Assembly: GCA_003211535.1 (NCBI GenBank)
Contig: QCSJ01000014.1
Span: forward strand, 1 to 32,859
Length of the DNA: 32,859 nt
Direction: 5' to 3'
Source of the DNA: Synechococcus sp. AG-670-A05
GTDB lineage: Bacteria > Cyanobacteriota > Cyanobacteriia > PCC-6307 > Cyanobiaceae
In this document: positions 10,380 to 12,086 of the stretch, piece by piece
How the letters are laid out: each line of letters begins with the position of its first letter
Position numbering within the stretch: position 1 is the first letter of the stretch
The notes under the pieces: model-generated
Databases searched by the model: none
Seen by the model: only the letters and a program-made list of their open reading frames with translations
What the model was told of the DNA's origin: nothing
Position numbers and translations under genes: made by a program

Positions 10380-11033
10380 TCACGACTCGATGTAGAGCTT
10401 ATGGGCACGATCCCACACCGACTGCAACGAGGAGTCGTCCAACATCAGGGCCTGGGGGTGGTGATGTCGCAACCAGCTGCGTCGTTCCTCAAAGCTTGCC
10501 CTGACAAAGAAACCATCCTGAGCTGCAAGCACCCGAAACTTGAGAAACTCGAGCAACTGGGCTCTCAGCCGCAGGCCATCCACGCAGCCAATGCGGTTCC
10601 TGGCATCGTGAATCAGAAGCTTGTTTCCTGGCTCAATCCCCCTGAGCTTGGGTGCCAGCACCTCTACAACGGATCGGTGTTGCTGGTGTCGCTCTTTCGT
10701 TTCCGGATGGGGGTGATAAATCCAGGCCTGCACCTCACGATCAGCAGCTGATTGAAGCGTGATGTGCCAGAACGAGAAGGTTTCCGGTGGGTGCAGGTCG
10801 GTCCAGCGGAGAAGGGGAAAGGTGGCGTCAGGATCGCGAAGCTGCAGCTCCAGTGGTGCGACGCTGAGGTTGAGCGTGCCCGGCCAGCAACTGGAAAGAT
10901 CCAGGCCACGTTGAGCAAACAGGGGCCGCTGCATGGCAATCGTGCCCTTTGGATAGGGCGATGTTGTGCTCTTACCGGACGCCACTCCGTATCCATCCAC
11001 CAGCGTGGTGGAGATCCAGCCGTGTGGAGTCAT
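10380..11033 (-). CDS. RibK/DUF120-like protein (CTP-dependent riboflavin kinase fold)
   Basis: A 217-residue protein that I would expect to be annotated as hypothetical. Its first 155 residues follow the order of archaeal CTP-dependent riboflavin kinases (DUF120): a first strand with a glycine-rich turn (VDGYGVASGKS), the conserved CWPGTLNLSV (the T-L-N motif binds Mg-CTP in archaeal RibK), a middle strand, an AWIYHP strand, and SVVEVLAPKLRGIEPGNKLLI, which matches the terminal (I/V)E(I/V)(I/L)AP..LR....GD strand. A C-terminal extension of about 60 residues is added. The gene overlaps the DUF6464 stop by 4 nt, so it is co-translated. Activity is not shown; it may have lost kinase function. 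Confidence 0.75.
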   Translation of the reverse strand: MTPHGWISTTLVDGYGVASGKSTTSPYPKGTIAMQRPLFAQRGLDLSSCWPGTLNLSVAPLELQLRDPDATFPLLRWTDLHPPETFSFWHITLQSAADREVQAWIYHPHPETKERHQQHRSVVEVLAPKLRGIEPGNKLLIHDARNRIGCVDGLRLRAQLLEFLKFRVLAAQDGFFVRASFEERRSWLRHHHPQALMLDDSSLQSVWDRAHKLYIES

Positions 11034-11368
11034 CGCTCCTCACGGTGGGCGCAGGAGTCGCAAGGTCCCTCTGGCCAGACAGCACAGCGCAGCAGAGGAC
11101 TGCGGGCATTGAAGCGACAGTCGGGATCTCCGATCACCCAACCATGGCGCCACCGCTGGGCGTCTGCCGGCCTGACCTGGGATTTGACCAGAAGGGCCAC
11201 CGAAGCGATCTCGTACCGGCCGTTGCGCAAGGTGTAGCGGTGGCGTCGCTGCAACACGAGAAAACTTTGATCGTCCGTTTCCAGCCAGCGTCCCGGCTGG
11301 GGAGCATTCTCAAGGTCTAGTCGGTCCAGCAAGGCCTCGCTGCCGGCCTGGCGCAGCTCAACCAACAT
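11030..11368 (-). CDS. DUF6464-family protein
   Basis: A protein of 112 residues when started at the ATG at 11368; the open frame extends to 11410, but that would run 53 nt into terC. The N-terminus MLVELRQAG, the core RLDLENAPQPGRWLETD and SFLVLQRRHRY, and the cysteine-bearing tail DPDCRFNARSPLLRCAVW ending in PCDSCAH match DUF6464, found in cyanobacteria and of unknown function. Four cysteines in the C-terminal third (RSPLLRC, GPCDSC) could bind a metal. It overlaps terC by 11 nt and the RibK-like gene by 4 nt, so the three genes form one operon. Confidence 0.75.
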   Translation of the reverse strand: MLVELRQAGSEALLDRLDLENAPQPGRWLETDDQSFLVLQRRHRYTLRNGRYEIASVALLVKSQVRPADAQRWRHGWVIGDPDCRFNARSPLLRCAVWPEGPCDSCAHREER

Positions 11369-12086
11369 GATCGGCCTCCATCGGGATACGGACGGAAAAG
11401 CCCCATGCAAACAGGACGAACACCACCAGTAGGGTCAACCAGTCCGGTTGATTCAACTCTGGAATGAGTACATGTATCAGCAGGCGCAGGGCCACAAAGG
11501 CAACCGACAGAAAACCAGCACTTTCCAGTCGTTCGTACTCATCGAGCCAGCGAATGAACAAACCAGACGTGAAGCGCAAAGCAATGATGCCGATGACAGC
11601 ACCCGTGCTGATCAACAGGATCTGATCACTCACCGCCACAGCCGCCGCAACACTGTCGATTGAGAAGGCCAGATCGGTGAACCCGAGCAGCAGGACGGTC
11701 TGCAGCAAATGTCTTGATTGCGACGGACTGGCCAGACCCGACGCGCCATCAGCCGTGTCCTGGGAGGACTGCCGCAGATGATTGATGAACAGCCAGAACA
11801 GATAGGCGGCAGCCAGAAGTTGGACCCAGGCGCTCTGCAGCACCCATTGAGCCAGGGCAATCAAGCCGACGCGAAGCAGCATCGCCAGACCGATGCCGAT
11901 GTTCAGCGCCAGACGCTCCTGTTCGGGACTGCGGCTGGTCCTGGCGATCGCCGCCAGAGCGACGGCGTTGTCCGCTGACAGGATGAGCTCCAGCATTACC
12001 AGCACTGGCAGCAGAGCCAGCACCTCTGCCCATTGGTCTGCACCCTCGTAAATGTCGGAGAGAGAGGGAAGCGCCGTGATGTCCAT
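11358..12086 (-). CDS. TerC-family integral membrane protein
   Basis: A 242-residue membrane protein with about seven hydrophobic helices and both TerC signature motifs: ELILSADNAVALAAI near residue 33 and LAFSIDSVAAAVAVS near 143. The acidic residues in these motifs are thought to bind metal ions. TerC relatives export manganese in other bacteria, and a chloroplast TerC is needed for thylakoid biogenesis. It is the first gene of the three-gene minus-strand operon. The start at 12086 (MDITALPSLSDI) is 36 bp from the divergent gene at 12123. Substrate is inferred. Confidence 0.88.
   Translation of the reverse strand: MDITALPSLSDIYEGADQWAEVLALLPVLVMLELILSADNAVALAAIARTSRSPEQERLALNIGIGLAMLLRVGLIALAQWVLQSAWVQLLAAAYLFWLFINHLRQSSQDTADGASGLASPSQSRHLLQTVLLLGFTDLAFSIDSVAAAVAVSDQILLISTGAVIGIIALRFTSGLFIRWLDEYERLESAGFLSVAFVALRLLIHVLIPELNQPDWLTLLVVFVLFAWGFSVRIPMEADHVG

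Follow-up and report, generated by a model that had tools for sequence, protein, structure and literature searches.

To our knowledge, the archaeal enzyme RibK is the one characterised kinase built on a cradle-loop barrel, and we know of no other riboflavin kinase that uses CTP. In MJ0056, we take T43 and N45 to bind the metal and E107 to be the base, and the LR loop of RibK presumably helps to hold the cytidine. RibF also has a metal-binding motif of the T-x-N type and a catalytic Glu. The enzyme assignments of MJ0056 and TA1064 have been confirmed (PMC8305020). Here we describe a 217-residue protein encoded in the window (the whole analysed stretch of 32,859 nucleotides from Synechococcus sp. 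AG-670-A05, contig QCSJ01000014.1), whose N-terminal domain is a true distant relative of archaeal riboflavin kinase with the same cradle-loop barrel. It belongs to a bacterial sister family of RibK/DUF120, which we call RibK-like.

The gene occupies positions 10380 to 11033 of the minus strand (from the open reading frame list, stop codon included) and 35 of 59 related genomes contain a match to it. It begins with ATG and shares a 4-bp ATGA overlap with the end of the upstream DUF6464 frame (11030 to 11410, minus strand; PF20065, E 1.8e-31), which in turn follows a TerC-family membrane protein similar to YkoY (11358 to 12086, minus strand; PF03741, E 4.8e-40; TIGR03716). The order on the minus strand is therefore TerC, DUF6464 and RibK-like, and the overlap coupling described in the earlier note is confirmed, with both families matched upstream on the same strand. 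Judging from homologues that begin MLVELRQ, the true start of DUF6464 is likely the ATG at 11368. The C-terminal end of DUF6464 carries a conserved four-cysteine pattern, C...C...C..C-x-H, which is metal-binding in appearance; a literature search for DUF6464 returned no paper. The three-gene order is kept in picocyanobacteria and is absent from the other cyanobacterial neighbourhoods that were read, where the neighbours of the RibK-like gene are variable, so this context is local to picocyanobacteria. At L140 (genome G021), TerC and DUF6464 are kept, the RibK-like domain is not detected in the genome and the helical domain described below is a gene of its own nearby. At L024 (G032:C1:1066317-1066956) the gene lies in two frames with a break near codon 108, which is either a frameshift or a sequencing error, and L108:7526-7708 is what is left of a second RibK-like copy, a short fragment that follows an intact one downstream.

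The RibK-fold domain covers residues 1-147 (10593 to 11033, minus strand), as delimited with AlphaFold2, VIA-align and hhalign. An AlphaFold2 model built with an alignment of 34 relatives has a pLDDT of 93.6. Foldseek's own candidates, and only these, were realigned with VIA-align, and the best match was MJ0056 with CDP and FMN (2vbv; Z 14.3, rmsd 2.4 over 125 residues), aligned over model residues 3-147. The top seven entries were all riboflavin kinases, and the next entry had a Z of 6.1. By Foldseek alone, RibK was absent from the top 50. Searches of the PDB by sequence gave no RibK match, whether with the single protein (for which nothing was found) or with the family profile; thus the likeness is reachable only by profile-profile and fold comparison. 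When 62 family members were compared with nine RibK/DUF120 sequences by hhalign, the probability was 96.5, the E value 9e-10 and the score 61.4 over 130 columns, with GTLN paired with GTLN and E-x-x-A-P with E-x-x-A-P; the MJ0056 reference sequence is identical to the PDB chain over 136 residues. Control scores were at most 21.5 over 150 column shuffles, 13.6 for the reversed alignment and at most 24 over 14 unrelated neighbour families. Block-shuffled RibK alignments in which the GTLN block stays intact still score 44, so the profile score is due in part to this motif. The RibK cradle-loop barrel, for which the earlier note had proposed a profile comparison with DUF120 and a structural overlay on MJ0056, is borne out by both. 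Among Pfam models, PF01982 is the commonest match of the family members at a weak level (10 of 34, always below the gathering cut-off; best E 0.0069, the window protein itself being unlisted). A PF01982 search of the protein's own genome returned none at E 10, and hmmscan against Pfam and NCBIfam with the single protein gave nothing significant.

The motifs GYGVASG, CWPGTLNL, AWIYHP and VEVLAPKLRGIEPGN are all present in the protein. They are more than chance, since homologues at 50-76% identity occur through the genus and G14, A18, S19, Q35, G43, N55, W77, F86 and Y106 are invariant in 62 sequences from several phyla. The glycine loop GYGVASG (residues 14-20; 10974 to 10994, minus strand), conserved in the same 62 sequences, is aligned by hhalign with the G-x-G loop of RibK. 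Within GTLN (residues 52-55; 10869 to 10880, minus strand), T53 and N55 align with T43 and N45 of MJ0056, and E124 (10662 to 10664, minus strand) aligns with E107. T53 is kept in 61 of the 62 sequences, N55 in all of them and E124 in 60, and the conservation scan suggested for the TLN motif came out positive for its T and N. The corresponding Glu, T-x-N and glycine loop are present in all nine RibKs, and from its alignment E124 is presumably the catalytic base. The family's own invariant or near-invariant set consists of W77, E84-F86-S87-F88, Y106, P108-H-P-E-T-K113, H116 and Q118. Two conserved family-specific motifs include most of these residues, namely ETFSF (residues 84-88; 10770 to 10784, minus strand) and Y-x-P-H-P-E-T-K-x-x-H-x-Q (residues 106-118; 10680 to 10718, minus strand), the latter being the presumed acceptor or donor pocket.

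The family differs from RibK in the LR loop. In 61 of 62 members, 11 residues separate E124 from G136, compared with 15 at this place in all nine RibKs, and Arg115, invariant in the nine RibKs, has no conserved Arg counterpart. A 'KLRG' stretch resembles the LR(E) loop of RibK in this protein alone, and the likeness does not extend to the rest of the family. Moreover, RibF (PF01687) is present in 59 of 59 genomes, including the protein's own, where it is a separate gene (G000:C5), so the RibK-like protein does not take the place of RibF as the FMN source. Because the family stays below the Pfam cut-off, lacks the LR loop and always occurs with RibF, we would not classify it under CTP-dependent riboflavin kinases, and that name, in its strict sense, is not supported. 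From the loss of the loop and the constant presence of RibF it also follows that the protein probably phosphorylates something other than riboflavin and may use a donor other than CTP.

What we favour by a small measure is a kinase that depends on a metal, uses a nucleotide and acts on a small polar molecule, probably other than riboflavin. The fold, the homology, the domain modularity, the loss of the loop and the conservation of the metal and Glu positions are observed; the phosphotransfer, donor and acceptor are what we infer from them. In such an enzyme the GxGVASG loop would hold the nucleotide phosphates, T53 and N55 would bind the metal (Mg), E124 would act as the base, and a small polar acceptor, bound by the YxPHPETKxxHxQ and ETFSF strands, would receive the phosphate on a hydroxyl group; the C-terminal helical domain would be a separate partner. 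The earlier suggestion that the protein acts on another small molecule may be right, while its other half, a sensor, is taken up below as a rival.

An accessory kinase of riboflavin or a flavin analogue, which makes FMN alongside RibF, perhaps conditionally, with CTP or another NTP, is unlikely in our view. In its favour, the fold and the metal and base positions are those of RibK. There is also an ordinary bacterial DUF120 protein on a plasmid of Azoarcus sp. KH32C (L146:3974-4411, plus strand), where its gene lies in a phenylphosphate carboxylase/UbiD/UbiX operon, adjoining a NUDIX hydrolase. This protein may supply FMN for prenyl-FMN, and its place in a UbiX/UbiD (prenyl-FMN) operon suggests that bacteria may have auxiliary enzymes of the RibK type. 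Nevertheless, the universal RibF, the lost LR loop and the many new invariant residues speak against a flavin substrate, and no flavin-biosynthesis genes were recognised among the neighbours examined.

The second part of the protein, residues 148-217 (10383 to 10592, minus strand), is helical in the models and has standalone copies in relatives. Among related genomes, the full-length protein is found through the genus, and elsewhere there is only the part equivalent to residues 1-145 or only that equivalent to 148-216. In one picocyanobacterial genus the C-terminal part is a small gene of its own just downstream of the first part, and in six genomes (G308, G192, G329, G313, G045 and G021) it occurs in the absence of the first part. 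Both parts occur in 14 of the 36 genomes of the host's bacterial family that are listed in the phylum sample, only the second in 4, only the first in 0 and neither in 18 (Fisher 8e-7 for co-occurrence, with shared descent ignored). No Pfam or NCBIfam family matches this domain with consistent support, and in a fold search its best Z was 4.5, with none above background. It is a separate picocyanobacterial domain, fused only in picocyanobacteria; the C-terminal extension recorded in the earlier note is thus real, comprising 70 residues.

With such an attached domain, the protein could be a non-catalytic sensor of a small molecule or nucleotide on the RibK fold, in which the helical domain relays the signal to a partner. 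Fusions to other domains and the coupling to a transporter-family gene and DUF6464 would suit this role. We regard it as quite improbable, as almost all sequences, from several phyla, retain the residues at the three catalytic-type positions, and most members outside picocyanobacteria are about 150 residues long without any added domain.

The kinase reading is also informed by the genomic company elsewhere. In two cyanobacteria of one genus, a cpYpsA SLOG domain precedes the RibK-like domain in one protein (L122:5951-6868 and L115:6006-6869). In two Acidobacteria metagenome bins the RibK-like part is C-terminal in an AroD-AroE-RibK-like fusion (L190:2489-4429 and L192:2-1351, the latter cut at its 5' end). 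Replacement of shikimate kinase, an idea raised by this fusion, was rejected because the two Acidobacteria still have a normal gene for shikimate kinase. A metallophosphatase follows the gene in four Anaerolineae-type loci. In three Burkholderiales, the RibK-like gene is the last of an operon that also encodes a sugar ABC transporter, a glycosidase similar to MGH1 (E 2e-92) and a ROK kinase, and in Variovorax it overlaps the ROK gene by 4 bp. To judge from these gene families, the operon would serve glycoside uptake with a mannosylglycerate-hydrolase-like enzyme. Related glycosidases adjoin an annotated glycerate kinase in Catenovulum and a sugar phosphorylase in Meiothermus. A role as the sole glycerate kinase of the Burkholderiales was rejected, as the three genomes carry class II enzymes elsewhere. 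Class III glycerate kinase is present in most cyanobacteria (PMC2063504), and none of the glycerate-kinase families (classes I-III) is among the Pfam matches of the 34 members. A kinase of glycerate, or of the matching aglycone, released from glycosyl-glycerate or glycosyl-glycerol solutes would fit these operons, the Variovorax overlap and the neighbours of the related glycosidases, but it is very doubtful given the class II enzymes, the lack of such neighbours in the cyanobacterial neighbourhoods read and the AroD-AroE and cpYpsA fusions, which do not fit. Taken together, the neighbours point away from flavins and towards the metabolism of carbohydrates or hydroxy acids, with no single substrate agreed between phyla.

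A scan of about 85,000 species genomes gave about 320 RibK-like loci, some of them in metagenome bins. The best 80 of these 320 loci include Anaerolineae, Acidobacteria, Polaromonas, Variovorax, Brachymonas, Janibacter, Endozoicomonas and others. In phylum samples, the N-terminal part was found in 48 of 386 cyanobacterial genomes, or about one in eight. Within other groups the family is rare (2 of 250 genomes in the order to which Polaromonas belongs, 1 of 149 Acidobacteria and 5 of 120 Anaerolineae), and this rarity suggests spread by horizontal transfer. A phage or viral origin was rejected, since phage records and viral contigs contained no match to the protein; a viral structure library gave nothing significant. 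Neither Pfam nor NCBIfam has a family model for this branch. The earlier note's expectation of new territory therefore holds for the branch and does not hold for DUF120 in bacteria as such, as ordinary members already occur in a cyanobacterium and on the Azoarcus plasmid.

We tentatively extend the kinase reading, at somewhat less than even confidence, to a new family of bacterial kinases that share the RibK barrel, have spread horizontally through several phyla and have changed both donor and acceptor; they would phosphorylate a small sugar-like or acid-like metabolite and not a flavin, and in picocyanobacteria they would have a dedicated small helical partner. If this is true, the branch of about 320 loci, with its catalytic frame kept and the rest rebuilt, would show that kinases with other substrates have evolved from the RibK barrel. 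With the invariant residues, operons and fusions at hand, the identity of the substrate can be put to the test.

When compared with known systems, RibF (PF01687) is a different family with a weak fold likeness (Z about 5-6). The ordinary bacterial DUF120 proteins, namely L046 and that of Azoarcus (WP_015451796.1), are closer, as members of the RibK family with GTLN or GTFN and the Glu. L046 (2954-3364, minus strand; genome G176) is the sole DUF120 protein over the PF01982 cut-off in 292 cyanobacterial genomes sampled. It passes with 54 bits, which the window branch does not, and unlike that branch the ordinary proteins keep the RibK LR loop. RbkR (Ta1064, PDB 5TRD) differs in having an N-terminal winged helix-turn-helix, while in the window protein the barrel starts from residue 3 and the extra domain is C-terminal. 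Compared with archaeal RibK (PF01982; MJ0056, PDB 2VBV/2VBU) and RbkR together, the protein falls below the Pfam cut-off, its LR loop is four residues shorter, the Arg is not conserved, it coexists with RibF and its fused domains are different; W77, ETFSF and YxPHPETKxxHxQ, invariant or nearly so, are found instead. What it shares with them is the common fold over residues 3-147 with the same strand order, the glycine loop, the T-x-N motif and, towards the C-terminal end of the barrel, the Glu.
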